This document shows positions 8,957 through 31,765 of a DNA stretch of 36,303 bases, in pieces (the first letter of the stretch is position 1; every line of letters begins with the position of its first letter). The position numbers and the translations under genes are program-made. The notes beneath the pieces are model-generated. The model had not been told where the DNA came from. It saw only the letters and a program-made list of their open reading frames with translations, and did not search any database. The DNA is from Rhizobiaceae bacterium (lineage in GTDB: Bacteria; Pseudomonadota; Alphaproteobacteria; Rhizobiales; Rhizobiaceae): assembly GCA_027484835.1 (NCBI GenBank), contig JAIXSF010000097.1, forward strand, positions 1 to 36,303. Direction: 5' to 3'.

Positions 8957-8988
8957 AAAAAAAGAGGGCCAGCGGAAGCCGCGGCCCT
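8957..8988 (-). terminator. Strong Rho-independent terminator for the minus-strand methylase-helicase operon
   Basis: On the minus strand AGGGCC-GCGG-CTT-CCGC-(T)-GGCCCT hairpin followed by CTTTTTTT. Confidence 0.8.
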
Positions 8989-9173
8989 TTAGAGTGTGAA
9001 GGTCAATAAACCTCCAGAGGGGAACAGCTGGTGCGGCGGAACTGGGAGGAGTGACCGCCATTTGCATCAGCTATAGGCAACATGCCCTTTTTCTGACCAA
9101 TCGCATACCACTTTTTGTGCAATGCAGCTATGCAGATGCTGCTGTGCATTCAAAATCGGCGTGATACGGCCGC

Positions 9174-14291: not shown

Positions 14292-14394
14292 GAAAATGCT
14301 CTCCTTGGAAAAGGGCGAGCGCCATCGTTCCGCTGGAAGTAACCTGCGGGCGGGACGGTCGCGAAGTTGTTGGAAGGGTGCGGCAAGCGCCGCG

Positions 14395-14808
14395 TCAGCG
14401 GCGGATCAGGCTGATGGATATGGACGTGTCGTCCATCACGATCTGCAGATGCGTCGCGTCGGGCTGAGCTGCGACGAGCTTTTCGAGTTCGACGGCGTCG
14501 ATGAATTCGACCCCGTCATCGCCACCGAAATATCGTCGCTTGAAATGCCAGTAATCCGGATGGGTCTTCGGATCGCACTCCTCGGCATAGATGACGAGCG
14601 GACGCTGTCCCTCGGCGAGTTTTCCGTTCGAGAGAACGTATACGCCCTCGTCACCGACCAGCCAAAGGCCGGCTCTGGCCTCGGCTTCGGGGGATATTCC
14701 CTGATACGGAAGGCGAAATCCGCCGTTTGCGGCCGCGTCGGCCCGACCGCGGGCGAGCACAGCGCCGATGTCGATGAGGGAGAAGGTGAACATGCCGCTC
14801 TCCCTCAC
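14395..14808 (-). CDS. Conserved hypothetical protein
   Basis: 137 aa; FTFSLIDIGAVLARGRADAAANGGFRLPYQGISPEAEARAGLWLVGDEGVYVLSNGK...; overlaps the upstream gene stop. Confidence 0.65.
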   Translation of the reverse strand: MRESGMFTFSLIDIGAVLARGRADAAANGGFRLPYQGISPEAEARAGLWLVGDEGVYVLSNGKLAEGQRPLVIYAEECDPKTHPDYWHFKRRYFGGDDGVEFIDAVELEKLVAAQPDATHLQIVMDDTSISISLIRR

Positions 14809-15407
14809 GCTGCGATCGCGTCGGGCAGGTAACGCAGATGGACCGGCAGCTTCGCCGCGATCTCCGCGTCGGTCAGATCTTCCAGCAGCTTGAGCGTGGT
14901 GCCGCCTGGTCTGGCGAAGAACATCACCGTGCGCTTGCCACGATCATCCTCTGGCCAACGCTCGCCGGCGTAGCCGCGATAGTCGTCAGCCGTGCTGCTC
15001 CAGATGTGCTCCAGACGCTCCTCGCGCGTCATCGCCCGGACAGGACGGGATTCACGCTTGATGATCGCCGTGCGCATGCGCTGGGGCGAGCGCTTGTCGG
15101 CGAGGTCGCAATAACCGTGGAAGTGCCGGATACGCCCGTCGATCGACAGCGTGAAAAAGATGCTGGTGATCGAACCGGTCAGGAATTCGCGCATGGCGAA
15201 CATCGCAGCCTCCATCCAAAGCGGCGGCAGGATCTCGAACATGTAATCGTGGGATGCCTCACCGATCTCGAACCATTCGCCGCGATAGAGCGCGCTGTCG
15301 TCGCCCTCCCACCGGTTCGGGCGCTGCGCGTGACGGTCGAACATGCGGAACATCTGATGCCGGTCTGCGACACCCTGGAATACCTTGCGGATAGGAGAGA
15401 GGTTCAT
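14805..15407 (-). CDS. DUF1419-like plasmid protein
   Basis: Start taken at MNLSPIRKVFQGVADRHQMFRMFDRHAQRPNRWEGDDSALYRGEWFEI (ATG at 15407, SD GGAG). Confidence 0.65.
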   Translation of the reverse strand: MNLSPIRKVFQGVADRHQMFRMFDRHAQRPNRWEGDDSALYRGEWFEIGEASHDYMFEILPPLWMEAAMFAMREFLTGSITSIFFTLSIDGRIRHFHGYCDLADKRSPQRMRTAIIKRESRPVRAMTREERLEHIWSSTADDYRGYAGERWPEDDRGKRTVMFFARPGGTTLKLLEDLTDAEIAAKLPVHLRYLPDAIAA

Positions 15408-15515
15408 GATGGGCTCCTTCTGGCCTTCGTCGGGAGGGACGCGCGGCTCATCCCTCGTGGACAGCCATCTTCTATTCAGCCCTTCCTGACCCCTCCCCCG
15501 CGGCCGCCTCTCCGA

Positions 15516-15569
15516 CGGCCGCGTCAAGGGCCGGCAAAGCCGGGCGAAGCTTCACCCTTGACGCGGCCG
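15516..15569. repeat. Perfect 15-bp inverted repeat with 24-nt loop at the 3' end of the Toprim gene
   Basis: CGGCCGCGTCAAGGG (15516-15530) and CCCTTGACGCGGCCG (15555-15569). Confidence 0.75.
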
Positions 15570-16514
15570 GCGGGCATGCGGCAGGCCTCTTTTCCCCTCC
15601 TTCTCCCGTTCCTTCTTTTCTTTTTCTCGCGCGCGCAGCGCATCATTCCAATCCTCGGCCGGCGGCGTCAGGCGAAACCAGTTGCAGCCGGCATCTTCGG
15701 CGATGTCGCGCAGTCGGCCGGCAAAGGTCTCGCCCTGGCTGTTGGCATCCGTGGCGGCGACAAGCTCAGCACCGGGACGTGCGGCGAGCACGCGAACTGC
15801 GGTTTCTGTCGTCGGCGACCATCCGCCGCCCGTGCTGAGATAGAGACTGCCCTCGCGCAACCCTTCGAACGCAGCCAGGCTCATCGCGTCGATCGCCGCC
15901 TCCGTAACGCACAGACGTGAGGCCGCGAGAGTGCCTAACCGGAAGAGCACTTTCGACCCACCTGTCGAGAAGCCACGCCAATCGGGACCGCGTTCCTCCC
16001 AGCCGGTGACGCCGCCATCGGCATCGACATGGGCCGCCCACATACTGCCGTGCGGGCCTTCACGCAGGACGTTGTGACGGATGGCATCGCGGATGATGGC
16101 CTCGGGCAGGTGTCGCCCGTCGCGCAGATAACGCCACGTCATCGATCCGCGCCACGGTTTGCGCCGTTTTTCCCATCGTTCCGGAATGGAACTGGGCGGT
16201 GTGGAATGGCAGGTGGGACGGGTCCAGACCGGTTCTTTCGGCACGGAGCCGACCAATGAAGCGATGCGGTCCAGAGCTTCGACGAAGAATACGCCGTCGA
16301 GATGTTGGACAAGACCGAACACATCGCCCTTAGCGTCGGACAGGGGGTCGAACCATCCTCTCCCCTCATGGATGACGATGACGATCTCCGCACTGCGTCG
16401 ATACTTGACTGCCTTGCGGGTGCTCTCCCTTACGTCGGCCGCAAAGCCGGCCTGCTCAAGCACGACGCCGCAGAGGACACGGTCCCGCAGGTCTTCCAGT
16501 TCGTTTTTTTCCAT
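15552..16514 (-). CDS. DUF3991/Toprim-domain protein (primase-like plasmid protein)
   Basis: Start taken at MEKNELEDLRDRVLCGVVLEQAGF; Toprim-like LCVTEAAIDAMSLAAFEG...LVAATDANSQGETFAGRL. Confidence 0.75.
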   Translation of the reverse strand: MEKNELEDLRDRVLCGVVLEQAGFAADVRESTRKAVKYRRSAEIVIVIHEGRGWFDPLSDAKGDVFGLVQHLDGVFFVEALDRIASLVGSVPKEPVWTRPTCHSTPPSSIPERWEKRRKPWRGSMTWRYLRDGRHLPEAIIRDAIRHNVLREGPHGSMWAAHVDADGGVTGWEERGPDWRGFSTGGSKVLFRLGTLAASRLCVTEAAIDAMSLAAFEGLREGSLYLSTGGGWSPTTETAVRVLAARPGAELVAATDANSQGETFAGRLRDIAEDAGCNWFRLTPPAEDWNDALRAREKEKKEREKEGKRGLPHARRPRQG

Positions 16515-16623
16515 CCTTCTGCCGGCGCTATCGCGTCCGCCCTTCTCGTCCGTTTCTTTTTTCCCGCAGTTTGCGGGGCAGTTTCCGGCGGTCCGCGAAG
16601 AGCAAAGGAGGCAAGGGCGCGGC

Positions 16624-16651
16624 CGACAAGGTGCAGATCTGCACCTTGTCG
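16624..16651. repeat. Perfect 28-bp DNA palindrome
   Basis: CGACAAGGTGCAGATCTGCACCTTGTCG, self-complementary at all 14 pairs. Confidence 0.9.
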
Positions 16652-16731
16652 AAGTGGCCGTGCCAGCCGCGGCGAAGCTTCCCTTGCCGCCTGCCGCTCG
16701 CAAGCGGCACCCGAAGTGGGAAGATGCCGGC

Positions 16732-16914
16732 TCAATGAGCCGGCCCGTATTCGAAGGGATCGAATTCGGCGATGGTCTCGACCTCGCCGTCATCGAGTTC
16801 GTCGCTCGGCAGAATGCCGAACTCGTTTCCTGCCCTGAAGAGCGTGACCGGGACCATAAGGGTGCGGGCAAGTGCGAAAGCGTGGCGTTGAGCGAGTGCA
16901 AGATCCTGTGCCAT
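16732..16914 (-). CDS. Small conserved hypothetical protein
   Basis: MAQDLALAQRHAFALARTLMVPVTLFRAGNEFGILPSDELDDGEVETIAEFDPFEYGPAH; ATG at 16914. Confidence 0.55.
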   Translation of the reverse strand: MAQDLALAQRHAFALARTLMVPVTLFRAGNEFGILPSDELDDGEVETIAEFDPFEYGPAH

Positions 16915-17198
16915 GTGAGAAACCTCCGTCCGGAGCGGGCCAATCCCGCTCGATGGCTCCTCGAAGGGACCAGGGACGGTCGCGATCACCGCGAAGGCGA
17001 CGCCGAGCGGCGGCAGCTTGCTAGCCGACCCTCAACGGGTTGATCGACGGAGATCCGGACTTGGGTCCAGGACGCCATCCATAAAGAGCGGGAATGGTTT
17101 GCTTCGGCGGGCCAGGTGATATTCCGGCACAGGTCTTCCACTGGCGCCACAGCTGCAGCCGCGACCTGCGATCTTTCCGCCACGCACCGGGCAGGTGT

Positions 17199-17471
17199 TC
17201 AACGGCGACCGGCGGTTTCCTGATCGGCAATTGCCTTGACGACCTCAAAGTCCATCGCGGCACGCGGTTCTATGCGGGCGACTTCGCTGGCGACCTTGGC
17301 CCAATGCCAGTATTCGGCGGTATTACCTTGCGCCCGGCTGCGAGCAGCTCTTCGCTGTGCCTCGTAGTAAGCATTGACAGGGTCCGATGCAGCCAGCCGC
17401 CTAGCATCTCCCTGCCAACGGCGGCGGATAGTTCGCCAGTGTTCGATCCATTGCCGCAGGAATGCGATCAT
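17199..17471 (-). CDS. Small hypothetical protein
   Basis: 90 aa; 4-nt overlap with the upstream DUF429 gene. Confidence 0.5.
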   Translation of the reverse strand: MIAFLRQWIEHWRTIRRRWQGDARRLAASDPVNAYYEAQRRAARSRAQGNTAEYWHWAKVASEVARIEPRAAMDFEVVKAIADQETAGRR

Positions 17472-18289
17472 GGCCGGGCCCGCCGCGTCGCGAGAAGTTC
17501 TGAGCGGGGTATCCAGATCGCCGAAATGTCGTCACCGAATGGCACTGCGGTTCCCTCGAAGACGCATATCCCAACCCAGGCGCAGATGACCGCGTCGAGC
17601 ATGTCCTCGAACGCCTTCAACTGCCATGATGGGGCCTCGAACGGGGGAAGCTGCAAAGCGTTAGAAGCGCCCGATATTTCCTGGTCCAGATGGACGACGA
17701 TTGTCCGCCAGGTTTCAAAGAGTTTAGTGCGCCGGTTTGCAGGGTTTTCCGTTGGCCAGTAATTGCGGGTCTTACCCTGCTTGTAGGGCAGCCGCTTTTC
17801 GGTGCTCATTAGTTCGACCAGGGCTGGATGCGGGTAGACCTCCAGCAGGCCCGGCAAGCAAACCTCTTTCGTCAGCAGTCCATACCCGCAGCGCTCGAAA
17901 CTGCCCCTCAGATCGTCGCTAACCTTGCCGGGCCTGACCGCACTCGGCGTGTGAGTGCTGCAATGACGGGCGCCATAGGCTGCCGAAACCAGATTGTCCG
18001 AAACTCGCCGCGCGGTGATCGGCTCGAGAGAAAGGGGCATATCCACGGCAACAAGGTCCACAGGAGCTCCAGCGAGTTTTCCGGCGGCACTAAGGAGAGC
18101 AACGGCCTCTGCGACCGAGCCGGATGGACGGGACGTGGAGATCAGACCCTCATCGGCGTGGTTCAGAAAGTGGCGATAGGACGATCCCGCGAAGATCAGG
18201 CGCCAGTTGCCGTCCGTGGAGGAAACCAGCGCGACACCCCTCGGCTGTGCCGCGGTCCAGGCCGCATCAATACCCAGAATAGCCATCAT
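17468..18289 (-). CDS. DUF429 protein (predicted RNase H-like nuclease)
   Basis: 273 aa; MAILGIDAAWTAAQPRGVALV...VDLVAVDMPLSLEPITARRVSDN...LLEVYPHPALVEL. Confidence 0.8.
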   Translation of the reverse strand: MMAILGIDAAWTAAQPRGVALVSSTDGNWRLIFAGSSYRHFLNHADEGLISTSRPSGSVAEAVALLSAAGKLAGAPVDLVAVDMPLSLEPITARRVSDNLVSAAYGARHCSTHTPSAVRPGKVSDDLRGSFERCGYGLLTKEVCLPGLLEVYPHPALVELMSTEKRLPYKQGKTRNYWPTENPANRRTKLFETWRTIVVHLDQEISGASNALQLPPFEAPSWQLKAFEDMLDAVICAWVGICVFEGTAVPFGDDISAIWIPRSELLATRRARP

Positions 18290-18305
18290 CGCCTCTTCCG
18301 GCCAT

Positions 18306-19286
18306 TCAGGGCGCCCGAAAACGATCGAGCGCCGTCAGATATTTGACCGGTGGATCGGCATCCCAGCGATAGATCTCCGTCCGCAGGAAATCCAGCTCCT
18401 TGTCGAACTTCTCCTCCGGCAGTTCAACCCACCAGGATTTCGGGCGACCGTCGGAGCCGTCCGACCAGCGATAACCGCGCGCCTTGAGATTGTCCTTCAT
18501 GTCGAATGGGGAATTCTCAGCGTAGATGCGAACCCGTGATCGCTGGCTGACCTGATAGAGCTCCGCAAATGGCGCTACGATCGAATCGGGCCATGTCTGC
18601 CCAAGCACTTCTAACAGCGCGAAACAATCGTCGACTGCTCGGTGCCCATCGTGAAAATATCCCGACTGGCCGATCAAATAGCCCAGCTTGCTTCCCTCGA
18701 AGCCGCGCGCCGACCAGTCGATCTCTGAGACCGAGCAGGCCCACGCCTTATCGACGAAGATCGGCGAGAAGGCTTCGCAAAAGGGCCGGTCGAAACCGGC
18801 ATTGTGGGCAATGAGCAGGTCGGCCGGCTCGATGAGGGATTTAAGGCGCGCAACGTCGATCACCTGACCGGCGACCATGTCATCGGTGATAGCGGTCAGG
18901 CGTGTGATTTCGGCGGGGATCGGAATCGTCGGCTGTTGAAGCCCACCATAGACGCCCGTGATGTCGCCAATCACACCCGCTTCGTTGAAGGTGAAGGCGA
19001 TCACACCGATTTCGATGATTTCATCGGAGCGGTGGTTGAGGCCGGTGGTTTCGGTGTCGAGGATCACTCCGCGGCGCCGGAATTCCGGCCGTGGGTGTTC
19101 GACGAGCGGCCTCGGTAGAAGCTTTCGCAGGATACGGTAATTGCCGGTCGCTTCGAGATGACGAACCATCGCCTCGTCATCCAATCCGATGCCGTCCTGA
19201 CCACCTTTTGCGACAACCTGCGGCCTGGCAACTCGCTCGGTAGCCGGCATAACAGGAGCTGCAAAGAAGTCGAGTTGCCGGGTCAT
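18306..19286 (-). CDS. DnaQ-like 3'-5' exonuclease domain protein
   Basis: 326 aa; ExoI motif VILDTETTGLNHRSDEIIEIGVIAF; LIAHNAGFDRPF; GHRAVDDCFALLEVL. Confidence 0.85.
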   Translation of the reverse strand: MTRQLDFFAAPVMPATERVARPQVVAKGGQDGIGLDDEAMVRHLEATGNYRILRKLLPRPLVEHPRPEFRRRGVILDTETTGLNHRSDEIIEIGVIAFTFNEAGVIGDITGVYGGLQQPTIPIPAEITRLTAITDDMVAGQVIDVARLKSLIEPADLLIAHNAGFDRPFCEAFSPIFVDKAWACSVSEIDWSARGFEGSKLGYLIGQSGYFHDGHRAVDDCFALLEVLGQTWPDSIVAPFAELYQVSQRSRVRIYAENSPFDMKDNLKARGYRWSDGSDGRPKSWWVELPEEKFDKELDFLRTEIYRWDADPPVKYLTALDRFRAP

Positions 19287-19388
19287 TCAATTCCGATCCA
19301 ATTGCGGCTTACGGAGCGCACAATACGCATCGACGCCAGTGCAAGCAACGAGGTGCCAAGTGTGTCTCCCTTCGCAGGTAGCGTGCGG

Positions 19389-20327
19389 CTATGCCTCTGG
19401 AGCGTCGGATTGAGGGCCGATCAAATCTATCTCAGCTATTTTCTGGAACTCCCCGAGATATTCCTGGCGGTGATGCGCAAGCCAGCGGGTAATACGACTG
19501 TTCGCAAGCAGCTTGGCGACATATCCGCGCGCCACGGTGAGGTGCAGATTGTCGATGCCATAGGTTTCCTCGACGCTTTTCACTTGCGTCTGAAGCGCGG
19601 CCAGTTCCCGTTCCATACGGGCAATCTGCTGGCCTGATGGCGTGCCTGCAGCCGCGCCCGTCACCTTTTTGGCCGTTACCAGTTGGCTGTCAGGCGTGGC
19701 AGCGCGGATCGCTCGGGCGAACATGACGGTAAAATTGTGCTGACCTATCATCAGATCTGCCGCCTCGATCTGGCGAACGGCGGACATTTGCCGCAAAACA
19801 TCGAACACCTTCATTGAGCAGGGCGTATCCTTCAGCATCTCAGCCGCTTCGGGACTGATGCCTTCCAGCAGTCGAAAGCGGCGAATGACGGACTCCACCT
19901 GAAGGCCCAACGCGTCGGCTATGTCAGCAGAGGAAACGCCGCGCTCGATGGCGCGCGCTATCATCCTATGCTCCTGGATCGGCGCCAGCCGGTTGACCCG
20001 CTTGTTATAGGTATAGGTGTCGTCGTCGGTGGCGATCAAGCACTCGACCTCAGCAATTCCGAGTTCCTTAAGTGCTTCCAGCCGCAGATGTCCATCGAGC
20101 AGGAACCAGGTCCTAGCATTCTGGGTGTTGGCGATGACGACCGGCGCCTCTACCAAGCCGATCGCCTTGATCGAGCTTAGAACCTGCGCGAACTTTCTGC
20201 TTTCGCGAGCGCCGTCCGGGAGCGACTTAAGGGATACGATCGCGGAAATCGGAAGCGTTCTTATGTCTCGGTCGAAGGCGAGTCGGATCCGCCCATCCCC
20301 ATCGTTGTTGTCCGGCCCATCATTCAT
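19389..20327 (-). CDS. RepB/ParB-family plasmid partitioning-like protein
   Basis: 312 aa; WFLLDGHLRLEALKELGIAEVECLIATDDDTYTYNKRVNRLAPIQEHRMIARAIERGVS. Confidence 0.82.
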   Translation of the reverse strand: MNDGPDNNDGDGRIRLAFDRDIRTLPISAIVSLKSLPDGARESRKFAQVLSSIKAIGLVEAPVVIANTQNARTWFLLDGHLRLEALKELGIAEVECLIATDDDTYTYNKRVNRLAPIQEHRMIARAIERGVSSADIADALGLQVESVIRRFRLLEGISPEAAEMLKDTPCSMKVFDVLRQMSAVRQIEAADLMIGQHNFTVMFARAIRAATPDSQLVTAKKVTGAAAGTPSGQQIARMERELAALQTQVKSVEETYGIDNLHLTVARGYVAKLLANSRITRWLAHHRQEYLGEFQKIAEIDLIGPQSDAPEA

Positions 20328-21222
20328 TGCGGCCTCCGGAAATCCGTGCGGTCAGCGCCCTTGGCATGGTCGCCAGTCCCTCGGCCCGCAGCAAATTGAC
20401 GAATCCTTCGTCAGCGAGCAGATCTTTCAATGCCTCAACGATGAACAGAAGCCGTGTCTGTGTGAAATCCGACTTCTTGACCAGCAGCCGCTGCTTTTCT
20501 GCCTCACGCTGATAGACCTGCATCAAGTCATGTGCCGTCATCCGGCGTCCGCCGCCCTTCCGTCCAAGACGCCCTGCCGGCAAACCCTTGCCCTGCGCGC
20601 GCATGCGTATGTCGAGCATTCGCCTGACAGCGGCGAGTTTCTTCCCCCGCAGCTGACCGGCCTCGTAGGCGTCGAGGAGCAGGTTCTGTGCCTCCTCCGT
20701 TTCCGCCCGAGAGATCTCCATAGCAAGCGTGATCGGGATGAGGCCTGTCTCCACAGCGGCAACGAGCCGTTCCTCTCCTTTTTCGAGAAGGGACGCGATC
20801 ATGTTAACCCAGGACGAACCAACGCCAATCTTCTCGGCAATGGCCGCGTCGGTGTATCCACGCGCTCTCAAGGCCCCGATCTCGCGCATCAAGTCGATCG
20901 GCCGCGGCGTACGTCGCGCGATATTTTCAACGAGGCTCATCACAAGGCATTTGTCCTCGGCGGCCTCGATTACAACCGCTGGAATTTCGTTCTGACCGAG
21001 CATCTGGAATGCTTCCAAACGCCCCTCGCCGCACACCAGATCATATCGCGGACCACCGGGTCCATCGTGTCGGCTCACGGTGATTGGACGTTTGAGGCCT
21101 ATGGCTTCGATATTGTTCACGATGTCGCGGTGCTGACGCTTGTTACGGGCTCGTGGGTTGAGGACCGTGATTCGAGAAATCGGAATCATCTCGATCCGGT
21201 TCGGACGAAGGGCAGACATCAT
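20320..21222 (-). CDS. ParB N-terminal domain protein
   Basis: 300 aa; ISRITVLNPRARNKRQHRDIVNNIEAIGLKRPITVSRHDGPGGPRYDLVCGEGRLEAFQMLGQNEIPAVV...LVMSLVENIARR. Confidence 0.85.
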   Translation of the reverse strand: MMSALRPNRIEMIPISRITVLNPRARNKRQHRDIVNNIEAIGLKRPITVSRHDGPGGPRYDLVCGEGRLEAFQMLGQNEIPAVVIEAAEDKCLVMSLVENIARRTPRPIDLMREIGALRARGYTDAAIAEKIGVGSSWVNMIASLLEKGEERLVAAVETGLIPITLAMEISRAETEEAQNLLLDAYEAGQLRGKKLAAVRRMLDIRMRAQGKGLPAGRLGRKGGGRRMTAHDLMQVYQREAEKQRLLVKKSDFTQTRLLFIVEALKDLLADEGFVNLLRAEGLATMPRALTARISGGRNE

Positions 21223-22793
21223 GCGGCCTCCGGCAAGGGAACGGGCGTTGCGATTTGATAGAGAAGCTCAAGGTCGTCGAAACGATAAGCATCGAGATGA
21301 AGAGCGTTGTCCTCCGACAGCCGCAACTTCTCGGACAAAACGTCGATCCGCGGGAACAGATAATAGTCGAAGGGCGCCCGGTTGGCCGCATCCATGCGCA
21401 CCACAACCGTGATGTCGGGACCGAGAGACGTATCAAAGCGGAGTTTCCAGCGCAAAAGCCCAGTCGGCGTCTGAAGGCAACGAGCAATGACCACCGACAG
21501 CGTGAATTGCTGATTGACGATCACCCGATCGGTTTGCAGATCCTGCAAGGCATCGCTGCCGGTGGCCCGCAATCTTTCCAGCACTTCCCCGACCACACCG
21601 GGATGGAGTTTGCGGAGTTCCCGGTTGGTTTCGACATAGCGGTAATCCCGATCGGGGGTGAAGCCGACGAGACGATAGGCTCGAAGCAGGCTCCCGAAGC
21701 GCGCGCTATAGGCGCTGCTGGACGGCATGCCGTCACATTCATCAATGACAATGCCGGAGAGCAACCCCTTTTGCCGGAAGAGGTCTCGCAAAGACTGCAA
21801 CATCTCTTCATCGCTCAGGCGGAACGAGCGCGCATTGATGATTGTTCTTGCAGCCTCGAAAAGCTCGCGCGCGACGACAGGCTCGAATGCTCCCTCCGCC
21901 CTGATCCACATCTCGGGATCGTTCCGGACACGCTTCTTCTTCAGCTTGAACGAGCGGCGGTTCCAGACATTGTCGCCGGCATATTTCTCGTTAATCAGGA
22001 CCTGGTGGACAGTTCCTCTCGTCCATGAACGGCCAAGGTCCGTCAGGATCCCTCGGGCATTGAGATCGACTGCAATCTGGCTCTCAGTTTTTCCATGGTG
22101 GACAAAGGCCCGGTAGACCTCGCAGACCAGGTTTACCTCCTCAACCGGCCCAGGTGTCAGAATGACGCGATCAGTCTGAATGCTCTTGTGCTCGCCACGC
22201 TGCAGGACCCCTTTGACAGCACCGTGTTCATCAATGAGGGTACGCCGCAGACCGAAGCCAGCAGGCCCGCCTTGGCGAAAACCCTTTTCGATCAACCGTC
22301 CCTGTCCAGCGAATACCTTCGTCGATAGTTCGCGGCTGTATTCGCCGGCCATCGCTCGTTTCACACCCTTGACGATCGTCGACACCGGGCTGCCGTCGTT
22401 TTCGAACTGCTCGGCGCAGTATTGGACCGCTATGCCGGCGCGCCGGCAGATATATTCGTAATAGGCGCTTTCGTCGGCATCCTGAAACCGTCCCCATCGG
22501 CTGACGTCGTACACAAGAACCACGGTGAAGTCCGTGGTGCCGGCCTGCACGTCCTCGATCAGTTGGCGGAGCGCGTCACGCCCCTCTATCTTGAGGCCAC
22601 TCTTTCCTGCATCGGCGTAGGTTCTGACGATCTCGATTCCACGAGCTTCCGCATACTGGCGGATCGCGTCGGCTTGGTTTTCTGTCGAATATTTCTGATG
22701 ATCGGTCGACATGCGGACGTATTCGGCAGCGCGAACAGCACGCGCCGGCTGCGCTGACGATAGTTCTCTGTCGTAGGTCTCCCGGTTCGCCAC
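21219..22793 (-). CDS. Large serine recombinase (resolvase/invertase family plus recombinase domain)
   Basis: RAAEYVRMSTDHQKYSTENQADAIRQYAEARGIEIVRTYADAGKSG; LVYDVSRWGRFQDADES. Start inferred as GTG at 22793; ATGA overlap with the ParB gene. Confidence 0.9.
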   Translation of the reverse strand: MANRETYDRELSSAQPARAVRAAEYVRMSTDHQKYSTENQADAIRQYAEARGIEIVRTYADAGKSGLKIEGRDALRQLIEDVQAGTTDFTVVLVYDVSRWGRFQDADESAYYEYICRRAGIAVQYCAEQFENDGSPVSTIVKGVKRAMAGEYSRELSTKVFAGQGRLIEKGFRQGGPAGFGLRRTLIDEHGAVKGVLQRGEHKSIQTDRVILTPGPVEEVNLVCEVYRAFVHHGKTESQIAVDLNARGILTDLGRSWTRGTVHQVLINEKYAGDNVWNRRSFKLKKKRVRNDPEMWIRAEGAFEPVVARELFEAARTIINARSFRLSDEEMLQSLRDLFRQKGLLSGIVIDECDGMPSSSAYSARFGSLLRAYRLVGFTPDRDYRYVETNRELRKLHPGVVGEVLERLRATGSDALQDLQTDRVIVNQQFTLSVVIARCLQTPTGLLRWKLRFDTSLGPDITVVVRMDAANRAPFDYYLFPRIDVLSEKLRLSEDNALHLDAYRFDDLELLYQIATPVPLPEAA

Positions 22794-22910
22794 GCTTCGC
22801 CCTTTCTTCGTTCCTGCCGGATCGGTCCGGGCAATTGACCGCCACAGCGCACGACAACATCCCTGCCGCCTCCCGCGATATTGCAAGTCTAGCTGACGAA
22901 GGAGCGGAAG

Positions 22911-23540
22911 ATGTTGCCGAAAACGGGCAGGAAGCTGCCGGTGTGGAAGGGCGTTCTGGGCGGGCGCGATATGTTGGCCCAGACCATTGCCGATCTGCTG
23001 CGCAAGGAGCATGGCGACACCCATCGAGCGATCAAACAACTGATGAACCAGACGAATGCGAGCGAGCGTACCGTGAAGCACTGGCTGTCGGCACAACATG
23101 CGCCCGACACATTGTTTTTCCTACGACTTATGGTCTCCTCCCCCGTCATCTGCGCCTTTGTTCTGGGCCTGATCGAGGGCCCGGCTTCCAATCCGTTTTC
23201 ATCGGCAAACGATCGCCCTGTCCGTGCCGTTGCGAGGGAAGCCTATGCTGCCGGGGAAGCGGCCTTCAGCGCGCTAACAAAGGATGTACGGGAAAGTGAC
23301 CCTGAAAATGGCCCTGATCATGACCCTAAACTTGACCCTGAACCCGTGGCCCTCAATGAACGTCAGCACTGGTTTCTTGAGCGTATCGTTGACGGCGACC
23401 GCTACGGCGCCAAGGAGATAATGGCTATCTGGGAGGTCAGCCTGAAAACCGCGCGACGGGATATACGTGGCCTCCAGCTCGCCGGATTACTGGCATATGT
23501 CGGCTCACGTAGGAAAGGCAGATATCGCTCCGTCCGATGA
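22911..23540 (+). CDS. Probable DNA-binding regulator divergent from the recombinase
   Basis: 209 aa; MLAQTIADLLRKEHGDTHRAIKQLMNQTNASERTVKHWLSAQHAPDT and a C-terminal HTH-like GAKEIMAIWEVSLKTARRDIRGLQLAGLLAYVGSRRKGRY; SD GAAGGAG. Confidence 0.65.
   Translation: MLPKTGRKLPVWKGVLGGRDMLAQTIADLLRKEHGDTHRAIKQLMNQTNASERTVKHWLSAQHAPDTLFFLRLMVSSPVICAFVLGLIEGPASNPFSSANDRPVRAVAREAYAAGEAAFSALTKDVRESDPENGPDHDPKLDPEPVALNERQHWFLERIVDGDRYGAKEIMAIWEVSLKTARRDIRGLQLAGLLAYVGSRRKGRYRSVR
23298..23345. repeat. Four degenerate 12-bp tandem repeats inside the regulator gene
   Basis: GACCCTGAAAAT / GGCCCTGATCAT / GACCCTAAACTT / GACCCTGAACCC, encoding DPEN-GPDH-DPKL-DPEP. Confidence 0.7.
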
Positions 23541-23814: not shown

Positions 23815-25449
23815 TTGAGTCTGGAAGGCCAACTGTCCGATCAAAAGTCCCTCCGGGCCGTGACCGGTAACACCGCCAACTGGGCCGAGTTGGCGAAAGA
23901 TTGCATTGCATTTGCCAACGCCGTGGGTGGAACTCTGAAGATCGGAATTGAAGATGGCCACGAACTGCCCCCTGTAGAACAACGAGTCCCATCTGAGCTG
24001 CCGGATTTGCTGCGCAGAAAGCTTGCTGAAAGAACCGTCAATGTGACCGGCTTGCCAAACGTCGTGACGGCTGCAAACGGCGGCCAGTACGTTGAGCTTA
24101 CAGTCCCTCGGTCTCTTGCCGTCGCTTCCACGACCGACGGTCGCTACTATCTTCGTGTAGCCGACCAAAGCAAACCAGTGACGGGCGACGACGTAATGCG
24201 GCTGGCGTCTGAACGCGCTGCACTACCATGGGAAACGCAGATCTCGCTGCAGATCCAACGGTCCGAGGTGGACGCAGCAAAGGTCAATGAGATCGTAGAG
24301 GGACTACACGCGTCAGATCGCGTAAAGTCTTCGGTGAAGGAAAAGACACAGAACGAACTGCTGGACCATTACTTTTTGACCCAAGGCGATTACCTCACCA
24401 ATCTCGGCGTCCTTTGTGTAGGTAAGCAGTTTCGGAGAGCACAGCTGATAACAGCGCCAGTGCTCCAGTTCATCAAGCTTGATGATCACGGGCAAAAGGT
24501 GAACAAAATTGTCTGGGATGACCATGCCCTAAATCCCATGGAACTAATAGAAGCCGTTTGGCGGGAAGTTCCCGATTTCAAAGAGTCCTACGAATTACCC
24601 GATGGTCTCTTTCGACAGAATGTTCCTGCGTTCGACGAGATTGTGGTTCGCGAGCTGCTAGTAAATGCGCTTGTCCATCGGCCCTATACGCAGCGAGGGG
24701 ACATCTTCCTCAATCTGCATCCAGATCGTTTGGAAGTCGTCAATCCGGGGCTGTTGCCTCTAGGGGTGACGCCGCAGAACGTGCTTCACACGACAGTACG
24801 GCGAAACGAACACTTGGCTCGCCTTTTCCATGACCTCAAGCTTATGGAAAGAGAGGGAAGCGGGTTCGACAAAGTCTATGAGGTGCTGCTTTCGCAGGGC
24901 CGGCCGGCCCCGGAATTGGTCGAGCAACATGACCGGGTGCAAGTCACCGTTCGCCGCCGTATTTTGAAGCCAGAAATCATCGATTTCATTGCCAAGGCTG
25001 ACGACACATTTCAGCTCACTCAGCGTGAACGTATTGCACTCGGCCTTCTCGCCCAACACGATGCGTTGACGGCGCGCGAGCTTGCAGCGCAAATCGAACT
25101 TCCCTCGATCGATGCACTTCAACCTTGGATCAAGCGGCTCCTGGAATGGCAACTCGTGAAGAGCGCCGGCCGAACTCAGGCGACGCGTTATTTTGTCGAT
25201 CCGGAAATGCTCCGGCGCCACGACTTCGTCGGAGGAACAACACTAAAACGCATTGAGCCCCACCGGCTTTTTGCGCTCATTATCGAAGATGTGGGTCGCT
25301 ATCCACGATCAAAGATCGGCGATATCCACAAACGGGTTGGCTCCGAGATCCCAAGGTCACGAGTCCGCCGAAGCGTTGAACAACTAGTGAAGGAAGGCCA
25401 ATTGATATCCAGCGGGATTCGCAGCGGTACACGTTACAGCCTTCCATGA
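23815..25449 (+). CDS. AlbA_2 (Schlafen-like) ATP-binding protein with C-terminal winged-helix region
   Basis: WAELAKDCIAFANAVGGTLKIGIEDG...RVPSELPDLLRRKL; FDEIVVRELLVNALVHRPYTQRGDIFLNLHPDRLEVVNPG; REGSGFDKVYEVL. TTG start at 23815 inferred from an SD-like GAGAGGAAG; the tracked start is TTG at 23776. Confidence 0.82.
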   Translation: MSLEGQLSDQKSLRAVTGNTANWAELAKDCIAFANAVGGTLKIGIEDGHELPPVEQRVPSELPDLLRRKLAERTVNVTGLPNVVTAANGGQYVELTVPRSLAVASTTDGRYYLRVADQSKPVTGDDVMRLASERAALPWETQISLQIQRSEVDAAKVNEIVEGLHASDRVKSSVKEKTQNELLDHYFLTQGDYLTNLGVLCVGKQFRRAQLITAPVLQFIKLDDHGQKVNKIVWDDHALNPMELIEAVWREVPDFKESYELPDGLFRQNVPAFDEIVVRELLVNALVHRPYTQRGDIFLNLHPDRLEVVNPGLLPLGVTPQNVLHTTVRRNEHLARLFHDLKLMEREGSGFDKVYEVLLSQGRPAPELVEQHDRVQVTVRRRILKPEIIDFIAKADDTFQLTQRERIALGLLAQHDALTARELAAQIELPSIDALQPWIKRLLEWQLVKSAGRTQATRYFVDPEMLRRHDFVGGTTLKRIEPHRLFALIIEDVGRYPRSKIGDIHKRVGSEIPRSRVRRSVEQLVKEGQLISSGIRSGTRYSLP

Positions 25450-25592
25450 GTTTGGCTCAAAAGAGAGTCTATTGGCGTCACCCGAGCCAAAACTTTGAGC
25501 CAAACGGCGGGAAGTATTCCGGTAAGGCCTTGAAACTTAACGTTTGTTTATTTGGCTCATATTTCTTGGCCGAACCAAATTTTGAGCCAAAC
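25450..25592. repeat. Cluster of five GTTTGGCTCAAA-type repeats in mixed orientation
   Basis: GTTTGGCTCAAA at 25450-25461; GAGCCAAAAC 25484-25493; TTTGAGCCAAAC 25494-25505; TTTGGCTCA 25551-25559; TTTGAGCCAAAC 25581-25592. Confidence 0.85.
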
Positions 25593-25664: not shown

Positions 25665-26348
25665 TCAATAATCAGCGACCGCTGCCTCTCCCTCCGCCCG
25701 GATGAATGCCAGAGCGACAGTATTCGATGTGTCAGAAAAGCGCTTCAAATAAACGCCATAGCTAACAGGTCCCCGTTGGAACCTGTCCTTCCCGAATTCA
25801 ACTAGAAATTTGCGCAGCATCCTCATCGCTTCGGGATCGACGCGATCCGTGTCTTTGTTTTTGATCAGCTTCAGCACATCACCTGACCGTGCAAACACGG
25901 AAAGCTCGCCAGCTGAGAACACCGGGTGTTCCTGTTCGGCGGATCGGGCAATCAAGATCGTGCGAACGCACCATGCAATCCGCCGATTGAGCAACGAAGT
26001 CAGGTTGCTGCCATGACCGTAGTCGATGATGAACCAGCCCAGATCAGAGGCATTCTGAATTTCCTGCTCATAGGAGGCCCGCAGTAAGAAACGCGCTTGA
26101 AGGAGCGCCAGCTGATCGAGAGGATCGTAGATTGCCTTTGCTTCACGAACGATGTGGCAAACAAACAGATCCCCATTTTCAGCGCGTTTAAGAAGCTCGT
26201 CAGCCGGATAGATTGAGGTTGAGAGATGGCCTTTTTGGATGTGCCGGGGGTGATCGTCCTGCGAAATCAAAAGCAGATCCGTATCAGAATAGACGTCCTC
26301 GTCCCCGCGCGCGTGGCTTCCAAACAGAAGCATTGCAGTGATAGTCAT
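25665..26348 (-). CDS. Minimal nucleotidyltransferase (pol-beta superfamily) with helical C-terminal region
   Basis: 227 aa; AMLLFGSHARGDEDVYSDTDLLLI is the GSxxRG...SDxDL signature. Confidence 0.85.
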   Translation of the reverse strand: MTITAMLLFGSHARGDEDVYSDTDLLLISQDDHPRHIQKGHLSTSIYPADELLKRAENGDLFVCHIVREAKAIYDPLDQLALLQARFLLRASYEQEIQNASDLGWFIIDYGHGSNLTSLLNRRIAWCVRTILIARSAEQEHPVFSAGELSVFARSGDVLKLIKNKDTDRVDPEAMRMLRKFLVEFGKDRFQRGPVSYGVYLKRFSDTSNTVALAFIRAEGEAAVADY

Positions 26349-26371
26349 CGTATTGAATTACCTTGCAGCCG

Positions 26372-27304
26372 TCAGGACTCGAACTTCGCTTCCTTCATTT
26401 TTCGGAGCGCATCCACCGATAGCTTTCTCACGACCTCGCGCGCCTGAACCACCTCATCAAGGTTCTTCAATACGAGCTGCTGCTTCTCAGGCTTCACAGC
26501 ATCCGAAGGCACATCGAGGCTGTGCTCGTTAATAAGATAAAACGCGGCGCTCAATCGACAGGACACCCGGAGTTCGTTGGCGGTCATGTCATATTCCGCA
26601 GCAACTGCCCCTTGCTTCGCTTCTTCCAACAGTGGGTTTGGGACGAGCACCAGCTCAATCGTATGGTGCCATTCCAGGTCCATGGTTGAATTCACGTCGC
26701 ATTTTTCGAGGAGGGTAGCGCTCGTAATGCGGTTCAGATTGTAATCTCTAAAATCATTGTGCTCCTTCGACCAGGAACGAATGTACCAGCGGCCGCCGGC
26801 GAACAAGAACGAATGCGGAGCGATCACCCGGAGGCCTGGGATGGATCCGGTGAGCGACGCATAGCCAACTTCCAATTCAGCGTTTTGTTTGATCGCGTCG
26901 AGGATATGTAGCAGATGGCTTGGGCTTGTTGCGCGCCGCTTCAGGGATCCCACTACTTCAACAGGCGGCTTTTCGGAGAACCAGGTATCCCCCTTGCTCA
27001 TCCAGCCTCTCTGCACGGCCATAAGCTGCAGAAGGTAGCGGTCAGAATATGGTCCCACAAATTCGGGGGAATAGTCAGCGGTACGGACATAGCTCTTTTG
27101 GCTGCGGTCGTACGTCAGGTTCTCCTCGGCCCGGCTCTGATACAAGGCAATGTCGGATGAGGCCTGTTGTTCCGAGATCCCGAAGAAATCCACAATATCT
27201 TTTCGATTGAACGACCCCTGCCAGAACAATCGAAAATCGATAAATTCCAAACGTTTAGAGACGCCCCACCTTAGATTACGATCGTCGGTTTCCGTCATGG
27301 ACAC
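26372..27304 (-). CDS. WYL-domain transcriptional regulator of BrxR/CapW type
   Basis: 310 aa; N-terminal winged helix RWGVSKRLEFIDFRLFWQGSFNRKDIVDFFGISEQQASSDIALYQ; central VGYASLTGSIPGLRVIAPHSFLFAGGRWYIRSWSKEHNDFRDYNLNRITSA (WYL). Confidence 0.85.
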   Translation of the reverse strand: MSMTETDDRNLRWGVSKRLEFIDFRLFWQGSFNRKDIVDFFGISEQQASSDIALYQSRAEENLTYDRSQKSYVRTADYSPEFVGPYSDRYLLQLMAVQRGWMSKGDTWFSEKPPVEVVGSLKRRATSPSHLLHILDAIKQNAELEVGYASLTGSIPGLRVIAPHSFLFAGGRWYIRSWSKEHNDFRDYNLNRITSATLLEKCDVNSTMDLEWHHTIELVLVPNPLLEEAKQGAVAAEYDMTANELRVSCRLSAAFYLINEHSLDVPSDAVKPEKQQLVLKNLDEVVQAREVVRKLSVDALRKMKEAKFES

Positions 27305-27444
27305 CTCTTCTTTATCGATTCATCCAAAAAAGATGCATCGCATTACTTGATTGGTCTTGTGCTCGTGCTTACCTTTTATGGAGGCATGGGGAGGTGCCGT
27401 CAACGTACTGGGAATGGCATTGCGTCGAATTGTCGGGTGCAGAG

Positions 27445-27485
27445 CTCGCTTTCTACGCGTGAATTGAGAACGAGTAGAGAACGAG
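27445..27485. promoter_or_regulatory. Candidate operator in the divergent WYL/MBL1 promoter region
   Basis: Exact direct repeat GAGAACGAG at 27466-27474 and 27477-27485 (11-bp period) plus an imperfect inverted copy CTCGCTTTCTAC at 27445-27456; overlaps the SD of MBL1. Confidence 0.5.
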
Positions 27486-27495
27486 GTTTCGAGCA

Positions 27496-28692
27496 ATGGC
27501 AGCCAAAACAACGCATTTTAAGGTCAGCAATGGGGATATGACACTCATCGAAACCGGTGACGGGCATACAATCATCGTTGACATCAATATCCGCGCAGCG
27601 GCCGATGATCCATCGGATGACACCCCAGATGTCGCAAAACAACTGCGAGAGCGCCTGTCGAGAGATAACGAGGGCCGCCTCTACGTCAACGCATTCCTGC
27701 TGACCCATCCTGATGCAGATCACTGTCGTGGCCTTGAAAAGCATTTCCATCTCGGTCCGCTTGGTGACTGGAAGAAGGCAGACGACAAGATTGTGATCCG
27801 TGAGATGTGGTCGTCTCCGATCGTGTTTCGTCGAGCCTCCCGCAACCATACTCTGTGCACGGACGCCAAGGCCTGGGCCGCTGAGGCGCGTCGCCGCGTC
27901 CGGCACTTCCGTGCAAACGGTTACGCCTACGATGGCGACCGCATCAAAATTCTCGGCGAGGACGAAAGCGGAAAAACGGACGACTTGACGGAGATCCTGA
28001 TTGCCGGTGGAGATGTCTTTCAGACCATTTGCGGTGTAACCGACAACACCTTCTCCGGCCACCTGCTCGCTCCGCTTCTGGCCGAGGACGAAGATGAGGC
28101 CGAGTTTCTCAGCAAGAACAATTCGAGCGTCATCATCAACATCTCGCTCGGCAAGTCAGACCTCCAGAACCCGAGCTACTATCTGCTTGGTGGCGACGCC
28201 GAGGTCGGCATCTGGGAGAAGCTTTGGGGAAAATATGGCGACGATCCATCTCAGTTCCAGTACGATATCCTGGCCGCCCCGCACCATTGCTCCTGGCACA
28301 GCCTGTCATGGGACAGTTGGTCCGATTTCGGTGAAGATGCTGAAGTGTCGCAAGATGCGAGGTCTGCGCTCGGCCAGCCAATGTCCGGCGCAACGATCCT
28401 CGCAAGCAGCAAGGAGATTAAGGACGACGACGCCGACCCGCCGTGCATCCGTGCGAAGCGCGAATACAAGTCGATCCTAGAGCCGGTGAAGGGTACGTTC
28501 ACGTGCCTTGGAGAGCTGAGCGGAGACGCCCCGCTCGAATTCGAAATCACGTCGTCCGGCGGCCCCAAACAAAAGGAACGCTCGGCAAAGGCGAAGGTTG
28601 CGGCGCCGGCTATACTCGGACTTGCCGGCGCTGCAGCCGGAAGCCAAAGCGCACTCGGTTCGCAACCATTCAAGCATGGTGGCGACGATTGA
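27496..28692 (+). CDS. Metallo-beta-lactamase-fold hydrolase (MBL1)
   Basis: 398 aa; LTHPDADHCRGLEKHF (HxDxDH), YYLLGGDAEVGIWE, ILAAPHHCSWHSL; C-terminal low-complexity tail ending ...QPFKHGGDD. Confidence 0.85.
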   Translation: MAAKTTHFKVSNGDMTLIETGDGHTIIVDINIRAAADDPSDDTPDVAKQLRERLSRDNEGRLYVNAFLLTHPDADHCRGLEKHFHLGPLGDWKKADDKIVIREMWSSPIVFRRASRNHTLCTDAKAWAAEARRRVRHFRANGYAYDGDRIKILGEDESGKTDDLTEILIAGGDVFQTICGVTDNTFSGHLLAPLLAEDEDEAEFLSKNNSSVIINISLGKSDLQNPSYYLLGGDAEVGIWEKLWGKYGDDPSQFQYDILAAPHHCSWHSLSWDSWSDFGEDAEVSQDARSALGQPMSGATILASSKEIKDDDADPPCIRAKREYKSILEPVKGTFTCLGELSGDAPLEFEITSSGGPKQKERSAKAKVAAPAILGLAGAAAGSQSALGSQPFKHGGDD

Positions 28693-30974
28693 CGCGGCCC
28701 TCTCCTGCAGTATTGCGTGCGGTTCGCCAAATCCGGGCGCACCCTCGCGTCTTAAGGCTGGAAAGTACCTTGGATGCCGATCTGTCGATCGTCGCCCATG
28801 TTGATACCGGTCTGGGCAACCGATGGAAAGCTGGCGGAGCCAGTCCGAACGGCGTCCTTGCGGTCGAACCGATCACCATCCGATTTTCAGAACACTACCC
28901 AGGGGATTGCCCGGACGTATGCCTTCGGTCCGACTTTGACCGCTCCCACCCGCACCTTTTGCCCGGCAATCCAAGTGAACCGCCGCGCCCTTGCTATATT
29001 GATGGCGATCCCCGCGACTTTTTGCGACTGAGGGGGCCCTATGGCCTGGTAACCCAGGTGGCTGATTGGCTAGAAAAGGCAGCAGCAGCCGAGCTGATCA
29101 ATCCAACCCAGGGGTGGGAGCCAGTCCGCCGGGACCGCCTCCATGACTACGTTGAAGCCGATGCGAACGTTATTCGGGCGCTGGTCAATCCGGATGGTGG
29201 AGGCGCTTTCTTTCGTGCGCCGTTCACGATGATCGGCGACGAGAAGATGCGATCCTATTGCTGTCATCTGATGGAGCGGCTTCAGCTACGGCAGGATATA
29301 GCAAAAACACTCTATACCCAGTACGGCCAGATCGGGATTGGGGTTGTGGTCTGGCCTGGCCGGTCACCGGCGGGTGGCGAGTTGGTCGCTGGAACGTACG
29401 CGCCCGAAACGGTCACCAATGTCATGGGGCTCTACGAGCGCGCGCAGTCGCTCGATTTGCTAGAGCCGCTCAAATCGCACCTCGGCCTTCTACAAGCGCG
29501 CCTCAAAGGGGTGCCGGCCAGCGTGCCGATCGTGATTGCGATCGCGCTTATGGTTCGAAGGCCACTGGAGGTCATGGGCCAAGGCTCCCGAATTGAAATC
29601 CTACCATATGTCGTCGAGGTCTCCAGTTCAGAGGACCTAGCGCCGACCAGCCTGCAGCAAGTTCGTTTGGCGGCGCACCGCGATACCATCGGCGCGAAGC
29701 TGCTGTCGACCATGGCTGGTGGAGCTGTTGTGACGGAGCCGCCCAGATGGACGCTGATAGGTGCCGGCAGCGTCGGATCTAAACTTGCCGTCCATTTGGC
29801 TCGTGAAGGCAGGGGGCCAGACATCGTCATCGATAGCGGCACGATGCGGCCGCATAACTATGGCAGACATGGCCTAATGCCCCGGTCGCGATTTGATGCA
29901 CTTAACGATATCAAGGCAGAAGCCTTGAGCCATTCCGTGAGGTTGTTGGGGCAGTCGTCTACCGGCTACTTCACAGATGCCGCTTGGCTCGCAACGGCCG
30001 GTACTGACGACGAACGACGCAAAGCCTGGCCGCGCGGGTGCCGCCTACTCGTGGATGCCACGGGCTCTCCGTCGGTGACGGACGCACTTTGCTTGCGCGA
30101 TGTTACCAGGTCTCGACCACGTGTCGTCGAGACTAGTCTCTTCGCGAAAGGTCGCATTGCCTACCTCGCAATTGAGGGATTCGGACTTAACCCGAATGTC
30201 CAAGACCTTGCCGCGGAGAGCTACCGCATTTTCGCCAAAGACAAAGCCCTACAGAAGCTCGTCTTCAACCGAGGAGGCGAGCTGGTCCCGATCGGTCAAG
30301 GCTGCTCGACACTGACAGCACGGATGTCGGACGCTGCTCTTTCTGCATCCATTCCCGCGATGTCGATGAAGCTGTCGAAACTCCTGCAAGACGATGGCAT
30401 GGGCGAGCACGGAGAAATTCTGCTCGGCCTCGTCGATGAAGATTTGCTGGGCCAGTCCTGGCAGCATCACACAGTCGAAACGTTTGTTGAGCTGACTGGT
30501 GACGATGGCACGACGCCCTCGGTCAGAATTTCCCGCCGCGTTGCCGACCAAATCGATGAAACGATAGGATCTTACACCGGAGTTGAGACCGGAGGTGTCC
30601 TGATCGGGCGCTTCAACGAAACGACGAACAGCTTCCATGTGGTCGACATTGTTCCCCCACCGAAGGACAGCAAATTCTCCGCCAGTCTGTTTTCGCTCGG
30701 AACCGACGGTCTCACCGATCGCCTCAACGAATACGTCGCTGATAGCCACGGCACGCTCTACCCGATCGGCACGTGGCATAACCATCTGTCCGATAGTCCA
30801 GCCTCTAGAACTGACTTGGCTACGGGCGTGCAACTTGCATTTGGTCAGACATTTCCAGCCGTAATCCTCATCAAAACGCCGGCGGCATTTCACGGATTGG
30901 TGGTCGAAGCCACGGACATAGTGGACCCCCAGGAACCTGTGGTCACGGTTTCACGCATACAACAATGCCAATGA
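28689..30974 (+). CDS. Single-chain E2-like / E1-like (ThiF) / JAB (JAMM) peptidase protein
   Basis: E2-like YPGDCPDVCLRSDFDRSHPHLLPG...PPRPCYIDG; E1 nucleotide-binding WTLIGAGSVGSKLAVHLAREG...IDSGTMRPHNYGRHGL; JAMM ETGGVLIGRF...IGTWHNHLSDSPASRTD. TTG start at 28689 overlapping the MBL1 stop is preferred over the tracked ATG at 28443. Confidence 0.87.
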   Translation: MTRPSPAVLRAVRQIRAHPRVLRLESTLDADLSIVAHVDTGLGNRWKAGGASPNGVLAVEPITIRFSEHYPGDCPDVCLRSDFDRSHPHLLPGNPSEPPRPCYIDGDPRDFLRLRGPYGLVTQVADWLEKAAAAELINPTQGWEPVRRDRLHDYVEADANVIRALVNPDGGGAFFRAPFTMIGDEKMRSYCCHLMERLQLRQDIAKTLYTQYGQIGIGVVVWPGRSPAGGELVAGTYAPETVTNVMGLYERAQSLDLLEPLKSHLGLLQARLKGVPASVPIVIAIALMVRRPLEVMGQGSRIEILPYVVEVSSSEDLAPTSLQQVRLAAHRDTIGAKLLSTMAGGAVVTEPPRWTLIGAGSVGSKLAVHLAREGRGPDIVIDSGTMRPHNYGRHGLMPRSRFDALNDIKAEALSHSVRLLGQSSTGYFTDAAWLATAGTDDERRKAWPRGCRLLVDATGSPSVTDALCLRDVTRSRPRVVETSLFAKGRIAYLAIEGFGLNPNVQDLAAESYRIFAKDKALQKLVFNRGGELVPIGQGCSTLTARMSDAALSASIPAMSMKLSKLLQDDGMGEHGEILLGLVDEDLLGQSWQHHTVETFVELTGDDGTTPSVRISRRVADQIDETIGSYTGVETGGVLIGRFNETTNSFHVVDIVPPPKDSKFSASLFSLGTDGLTDRLNEYVADSHGTLYPIGTWHNHLSDSPASRTDLATGVQLAFGQTFPAVILIKTPAAFHGLVVEATDIVDPQEPVVTVSRIQQCQ

Positions 30975-31765
30975 CAGGAAATACGATGGTAGGTATCTCC
31001 AAGCACTTCGACGCCTACACTCTCCGGGCGAGAGTTGTTCCAGCACTTATGGCGGGACTTCCTACCCTCGCCTTCTTGTTTCTCATTATCCCTTGGGATC
31101 ATTTCAGCGTGTCGCAGGCCATATCCGCGACGATGGCCATAATCCTGCTGGTCGCCTTCGCTGATCTCGCCAGAAACCTCGGAAGAAAGGCTGAAAGAAA
31201 ACTCGGCACACGGGCGACGCCAGAGTTCTGGTTCCGAGATGACGGCAGCATCGATTCGATCTCTAAGGATCGATATCGGAGTTTCGTCGCATCAAAGCTT
31301 CATATTCAGGCGCCGAACGCGGAAGATGAAATCTCGGACGCAGCATGTGCAAAACAATTCTATTTGAGCGCGGGGAATTGGCTGCGAGATCAAACCCGCG
31401 ACCATAAGAAGTTCCGCATTCTGGCGGATGAGCTATTTACGTATGGCTTTCGTCGCAATCTCTTTGGTCTGAAGCCGGTCGCACTATCTCTGAATGCGAT
31501 CGTTCTTGGGCTTTGCCTCATCGCGATGACTTTTTCGCTACCCGTGGAGCTTCCCGCGCTCCAATCGTCTGGCAGGCTCGTCACCGCCATCATAGCCGTG
31601 ATTCTTCATTCCGCTTTCATGATCTTTGCGGTGAACAAAGAAGGTGTCCGCGAGGCTTCCCGCGCATATGGAATTCAGTTGATCCTGAGTTGCGAAACGC
31701 TCATGGCCTCCACCGGCACCCCCCGGGGGCAGGCAAAGTCGGGCCGTAGTAAACAACAACCTTAA
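30971..31765 (+). CDS. Predicted four-TM membrane protein
   Basis: ATGA overlap with the E2-E1-JAB stop; hydrophobic segments PALMAGLPTLAFLFLII, ISATMAIILLVAFADLA, LSLNAIVLGLCLIAMTF and LVTAIIAVILHSAFMIFAV. Confidence 0.75.
   Translation: MTGNTMVGISKHFDAYTLRARVVPALMAGLPTLAFLFLIIPWDHFSVSQAISATMAIILLVAFADLARNLGRKAERKLGTRATPEFWFRDDGSIDSISKDRYRSFVASKLHIQAPNAEDEISDAACAKQFYLSAGNWLRDQTRDHKKFRILADELFTYGFRRNLFGLKPVALSLNAIVLGLCLIAMTFSLPVELPALQSSGRLVTAIIAVILHSAFMIFAVNKEGVREASRAYGIQLILSCETLMASTGTPRGQAKSGRSKQQP

Follow-up and report, generated by a model that had tools for sequence, protein, structure and literature searches.

The window analysed here, a 36,303-nucleotide stretch of a Rhizobiaceae contig, encodes on its plus strand (23815-25449) a 544-aa protein with an AlbA_2 (Schlafen) domain, a HATPase_c_4 domain and two winged helices (wHTH). 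Both Pfam matches exceed their cut-offs (SLFN_AlbA_2, 1.6e-8, 35.5 bits against 25.3; HATPase_c_4, 1.1e-18, 67.4 bits against 26), assigning the protein to both families, and its TTG start at 23815 was fixed by orthologue alignment and a purine-rich stretch immediately upstream. An AlphaFold model (pLDDT 87.5) places the two winged helices at the C-terminus; the first, delimited by the secondary structure of the model, spans residues 403-460 (25021-25194, plus strand), and the second residues 482-542 (25258-25440, plus strand), with its recognition helix at residues 514-526 (25354-25392, plus strand). Among the orthologues E4 and E46 are invariant and D9 and K11 are at least 90% conserved, and the acids among them are presumably equivalent to the active-site acids of SLFN13. 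The best Foldseek match over most of the length is DIP2311 of Corynebacterium diphtheriae (PDB 3lmm; 7.9e-29), the closest solved structure and the sole PDB sequence match (~20% identity), which is listed as uncharacterised; Schlafen N-domains were also matched, with weak E-values. Pfam found no recombinase domain in the protein, and NCBIfam holds no model that matches it.

Directly past this gene lies an array of six 9-bp TTTGGCTCA units in two clusters (A, 25451-25504; B, 25551-25591), each ordered +,-,-. Unit A1 (25451-25459, plus strand, exact TTTGGCTCA) starts one base past the TGA stop codon (25447-25449) and is followed by A2 (TTTGGCTCG, 25483-25491, minus strand, one mismatch) and A3 (25496-25504, minus strand, exact). 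Cluster B opens 100 bp past A1, as in the orthologues, with B1 (25551-25559, plus strand, exact) and continues with B2 (TTTGGTTCG, 25571-25579, minus strand, two mismatches), whose position holds an exact TTTGGCTCA in NGR234 (L094), L008, L009 and L031, and B3 (25583-25591, minus strand, exact). The earlier note had described five repeats in inverted pairs; the repeats are real and both pairs were recovered in place, but B2 had been overlooked and the units are arranged as +,-,- twice rather than as independent pairs. Its description of each unit as dyad-like (TTTG-N3-CAAA) did not hold up, since what relatives conserve is the 9-mer; the pseudo-dyad is lost in them and thus incidental, and we dropped it as a functional feature. 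When aligned on B1, the spacer between the clusters (25505-25550, no strand) retains tAA..c.tTg ahead of a T-rich run in TTTGGCTCA-type relatives, and its sequence is not alike between unit types. A consensus scan revealed no convincing sigma-70 promoter in the array or spacer.

All four matches to TTTGGCTCAWA in the 4.32 Mb assembly fall within the array. When 9-mer repeats were scored de novo, the region reached 9, whereas 40 dinucleotide shuffles averaged 3.3 and none of them attained that value. A lone 9-mer is common in the window (10 matches with at most one mismatch, 7.2 expected); the exceptional feature is the clustering, not the single 9-mer.

We collected orthologues from 80 loci in one scan of species genomes and from 17 further strong plasmid matches, covering Alpha-, Beta- and Gammaproteobacteria, Geobacter and relatives, Myxococcota, Cyanobacteria, Acidobacteria, Nitrospirota and others. 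The earlier note had counted absence of the motif from all orthologous loci among the grounds for refutation; instead, most orthologues bear a two-cluster array directly past the stop codon. A 190-bp stretch covering the stop codon and the sequence past it was scored at 86 loci, with 40 dinucleotide shuffles each. The repeat score exceeded all shuffles in 53 of them, and its mean downstream of the gene was 5.3, compared to 3.3 on the upstream side, 3.6 for control stretches and 3.1 for shuffles. Units of the known types occur at 26.3 per kb in the 170 bp past the stop codon, compared to 0.47 upstream, 0.48 within the gene and 0.64 at greater distance, so that, as expected of an operator, short sites recur beside the regulator gene and are enriched over a background of ~0.5 per kb. 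Their distance from the stop codon, displayed with unit seeds that were partly picked by eye, is nearly constant within each unit type, with offsets of 0 (A1), 32 (A2), 45 (A3), 100 (B1), 120 (B2) and 132 (B3) in TTTGGCTCA loci and of 6, 38, 52, 93 and 116 in TATCG loci. Some orthologous loci have no clear array (e.g. L020, L046, L071, L074 and L081), and distant AlbA_2/HATPase_c_4 proteins of the same genus and order are without a comparable one in the readable cases (L086, L087, L089 and L093), the weak repeat at L087 being unrelated to it.

Lineages differ in the sequence of the unit (TTTGGCTCA, TATCGNCCA, TCTCTTTCA, TATCTGCCA and others). The layout in two clusters mostly persists through these changes. 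Units resembling TTTGGCTCA are found in the relatives of the window and in some distant lineages, TATCG(C/A/G)CCA-like units in a large beta/gammaproteobacterial clade and Geobacter, and TCTCTTTCA in two cyanobacteria; TATCTGCCA, TAACGGACA and TTCTGGCCA are among the types of the remaining lineages. The TTTGGCTCA label requires five changes on the protein tree, four of them forced by supported branches; judging from this tree, the unit type has switched at least four times. A CTATC/TTATC motif about 20 bp past A1 is retained in the middle of cluster A in TTTGGCTCA-type loci and is similar to the core found in units of the other type.

These switches coincide with changes at the very end of the protein. 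Close pairs of different unit type share an identity of ~0.9 over most of the protein, 0.6 at residues 481-520 and ~0.3 at 521-544; same-unit pairs of more distant relatives share 0.72-0.80 across the last 65 residues. The sister pair L031 (TTTGGCTCA) and L041 (TATCG) shows the same C-terminal drop and constitutes an independent case. A partial Mantel test over 45 loci, using 32-residue windows, de novo units and only the non-coding sequence past the stop codon, gave r = 0.60 for residues 513-544 and 0.28 for 481-512, both with p at the 1/300 minimum, p-values that are optimistic because the loci share descent and the permutation removes kinship only partly. None of the other fifteen windows was both positive and significant (r about 0 or negative), including those over residues 385-480 (about 0), and the first winged helix accordingly shows no co-variation with the unit. 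The independent switches and loci added later do not rely on these p-values and are untouched by their optimism. The two main unit types are told apart best by residues that include 500, where the second helix begins, 513-516, at the start of the recognition helix, where the split of TTTGGCTCA from TATCG proteins is near-complete, and 530-539, in the wing. Among the loci fetched later, L103 combines a TATCG-type helix (EIHIRQVKR..RWRRY) with TATCGACCA units, and L105 and L107 combine TTTGGCTCA-type helices (EIPRTQ/EIPRSR..GTRY) with TTTGGCTCA-type units, all as predicted; L104, whose helix is of a third type, has a pair of TAAAGGACA units, for which there was no prior prediction, and L108, a near copy of L036, was not counted as independent.

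The site thus co-varies with the recognition domain in the way expected of an operator. Since unit sharing tracks the last winged helix alone, we infer that the units are the DNA sites of that domain, and the simplest reading is that the second winged helix would recognise them directly. Very probably, then, the DNA-reading tail of the protein docks at the repeats; of the candidates put forward in the earlier note, operators for the C-terminal winged helices is therefore the one strongly supported by array recurrence and unit co-variation, specifically for the last winged helix.

To evaluate the gene neighbourhood, we considered co-directional ORFs of at least 150 aa starting within 700 bp downstream, which 54 loci possess. 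In 39 of these the gene belongs to a restriction-modification system or encodes a defence helicase, as assigned by Pfam, clustering and N-terminal sequence in a tally made partly by eye: 13 HsdM, 12 HsdR, six SNF2/DEAD helicases, four N6_N4 methylases, and one each of HsdS, C5 methylase, Eco57I and ResIII. On the upstream side, hsdS is the neighbour of the regulator gene at 8 of 53 loci, so the regulator can form part of an hsd operon. In annotated Aeromonas plasmids the regulator is followed, after ~215 bp, by hsdM, then by specificity and other genes and finally by hsdR, and in loci such as L018 cluster B sits tens of bp ahead of the start codon. Lying between the regulator and the restriction genes, the array is where an operator of the latter should be, and it is most likely the operator by which the AlbA_2 protein controls restriction-modification and other defence genes. 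Autoregulation through the same units was considered and rejected: upstream of the regulator gene unit density is at background, and the absence of units there means that ordinary autoregulation is not indicated.

The evidence is comparative throughout: array, position, co-variation and neighbourhood are read from the sequences themselves, and from them we infer binding, repression and response to a signal. In the mechanism that we propose, the last winged helix of the protein encoded upstream would read the array DNA, several protein copies could occupy the six units in two clusters ~100 bp apart, and binding would most likely repress or time transcription of the defence gene, possibly governed by the ATPase/AlbA_2 part. 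Such an arrangement, present in dozens of related bacteria, appears to be a genetic switch for bacterial immunity that has not been described before. Taken as a whole, the explanation that the array is the target of the last winged helix, that it controls the downstream defence gene and that the window carries an orphan copy appears to us well founded and probable. A bolder version, in which the protein would be sensor, switch and effector at once, a Schlafen-type RNase/ATPase parked on the array between its own gene and a restriction-modification operon, where a single signal (phage or loss of modification) would both lift the repression of restriction and free the effector, with recognition helix and array exchanged together as systems pass from one bacterium to another, is speculative and on balance improbable.

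A rival reading, which we consider unlikely, is that the protein is mainly a Schlafen-type RNase and anti-phage effector that the array docks or titrates at its own locus, with regulation secondary. It would account for E4, D9, K11 and E46 being invariant or nearly so in the family, agrees with the weak Foldseek matches to Schlafen N-domains, and has a parallel in similar domain fusions that a recent survey (PMC12839542) reads as RNase effectors. However, the array is confined to the space between the gene and the next one and does not occur elsewhere in the flanks, which control of the next gene fits better than docking.

Less probable still is that the repeats serve to move the gene by recombination or transposition; a recombination site had been among the candidates of the earlier note. 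Gene and array do travel together, as in the ~2 kb units of rhizobia and in L007 and L092, but such joint movement is equally expected of a regulator and its operator. The AlbA_2 protein is without a recombinase domain, the outer edges that the rhizobial unit conserves are well beyond the repeats, array architecture is unchanged in loci between hsd genes, and we saw no sign of joining at the repeats. The serine recombinase gene of the window (21219-23099) falls outside the DNA common to orthologues, and a reading of the repeats as a res/att site is not supported. Least probable of all is the remaining candidate of the earlier note, a structured 3' RNA (attenuator, terminator or processing signal): although the stretch folds better than shuffles (z -4.3), as expected of any region with long inverted repeats, no predicted fold is common to the orthologues (A1 pairs with B3 in the window, A and B form separate hairpins in L031, units give only the B hairpin in L008, and z is -0.6 in L027), A3 and B3, which are on the same strand and would not have to agree for pairing, nevertheless agree in sequence and follow the winged helix, and neither a T-run terminator in the array nor an Rfam match at the repeats was found.

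The reading as an operator can be set against known regulators of restriction. Controller (C) proteins of type II restriction-modification systems are co-encoded with them, bind repeated operators and time expression; they are small lambda-cI-like HTH proteins, unlike the large AlbA_2 protein with its winged helices and AlbA_2/HATPase part. By analogy, the closest functional counterpart is RptR, the RMS-proximal transcriptional regulator, a single-domain, four-helix protein of 79 aa; the site that it binds, the 6-bp palindrome TAGCTA, belongs to the promoter ahead of the RptR gene, and repression is shown (Zhang et al. 2025, PMC12255303, where C proteins are also discussed). RptR and, in orthologous loci, the AlbA_2 protein are encoded beside type I restriction-modification genes and have several short repeated sites, which for RptR lie near its promoter. 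The 544-aa AlbA_2 protein differs by combining AlbA_2, HATPase and two winged helices, and its units are non-palindromic 9-mers downstream of the gene that switch between lineages; it is neither a 79-aa helical protein nor preceded by TAGCTA palindromes, and so falls outside the RptR family. A role as backup RNase effectors has been described for Schlafen - minimal histidine kinase - wHTH proteins encoded close to BREX and BREX-related loci (PMC12839542). These proteins share the domain order, by description, and the defence neighbourhoods; the part of that account consulted gives no DNA targets or arrays for them. Our literature search found no published operator for the AlbA_2 family, and nothing on regulation for AlbA_2 with restriction-modification. 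Little is known about how type I and III restriction-modification systems are controlled at the DNA level, with RptR (2025) the clear case in the literature searched; the AlbA_2 protein would be a second candidate regulator, unrelated to RptR and phylogenetically wide, and with the array a DNA target is predicted for a Schlafen-like family that has until now been treated as effector. Its natural series of matched recognition helices and sites may also yield a readable winged-helix recognition code.

In the window itself, the next gene past the array is convergent and encodes a nucleotidyltransferase (25665-26348, minus strand), with no co-directional restriction-modification gene beside it. 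The other rhizobial copies likewise have no co-directional defence gene, annotated rhizobial plasmid copies are without restriction genes nearby, and HsdM_N has no match in the own genome (84% complete). As regulator and array are kept, the restriction gene is absent and a convergent gene follows, we interpret the window copy as an orphan regulator-operator cassette whose downstream defence gene has been lost. Rhizobial copies (L094-L098 and L005) share ~2 kb of DNA in unrelated contexts, from ~130 bp before the gene to 280 bp past it, with the right edge conserved near GATACATTATGCGATCTT, a sequence that recurs elsewhere in L097. The Sinorhizobium fredii GR64 plasmid pSfreGR64c carries two copies of this unit, which is possibly a small mobile cassette.

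Traces of exchange are also visible. In L007 (4660-5000) a TTTGGCTCA-type gene and array are followed by a complete TATCG-type array ahead of hsdR, and in L077 (4632-4960) a TATCG-type array stands directly after a TTTGGCTCA array, as if one regulator-operator unit had displaced the gene of another and left its operator behind. L092 (1500-1720), from a genome of the same family, holds a frameshifted remnant of the last winged helix and a shortened TTTGGCTCA array that has lost its B part; the fossils in L007 and L092 fit regulator and array moving together. Insertion next to a tRNA gene was considered for the orphan copies, since a tRNA T-arm-like sequence lies near the left edge of several of them; ARAGORN detected no tRNA in the window or the rhizobial loci, and a tRNA-Ala precedes L031 and a tRNA-Thr lies upstream in L008.

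The surroundings of the locus contain further genes of defence and mobility. Beside the array (25665-31765), the minus strand encodes a minimal nucleotidyltransferase and a WYL-domain regulator, and the plus strand further on a metallo-beta-lactamase-fold-like ORF (no Pfam match) and a Prok-E2_A/ThiF protein; this region has the appearance of a ubiquitin-like defence cassette separate from the array and equipped with a WYL regulator of its own. On the other side (9174-23099) are two RepB/ParB-like genes, the large serine recombinase gene, a gene for a Toprim/DUF3991 protein, and one for a protein of 1705 aa that matches SNF2/ResIII and Eco57I, a content that marks the window as a plasmid or mobile island. 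An alphaproteobacterial ar15 small RNA is located at 8960-9072 on the minus strand (111 bits).
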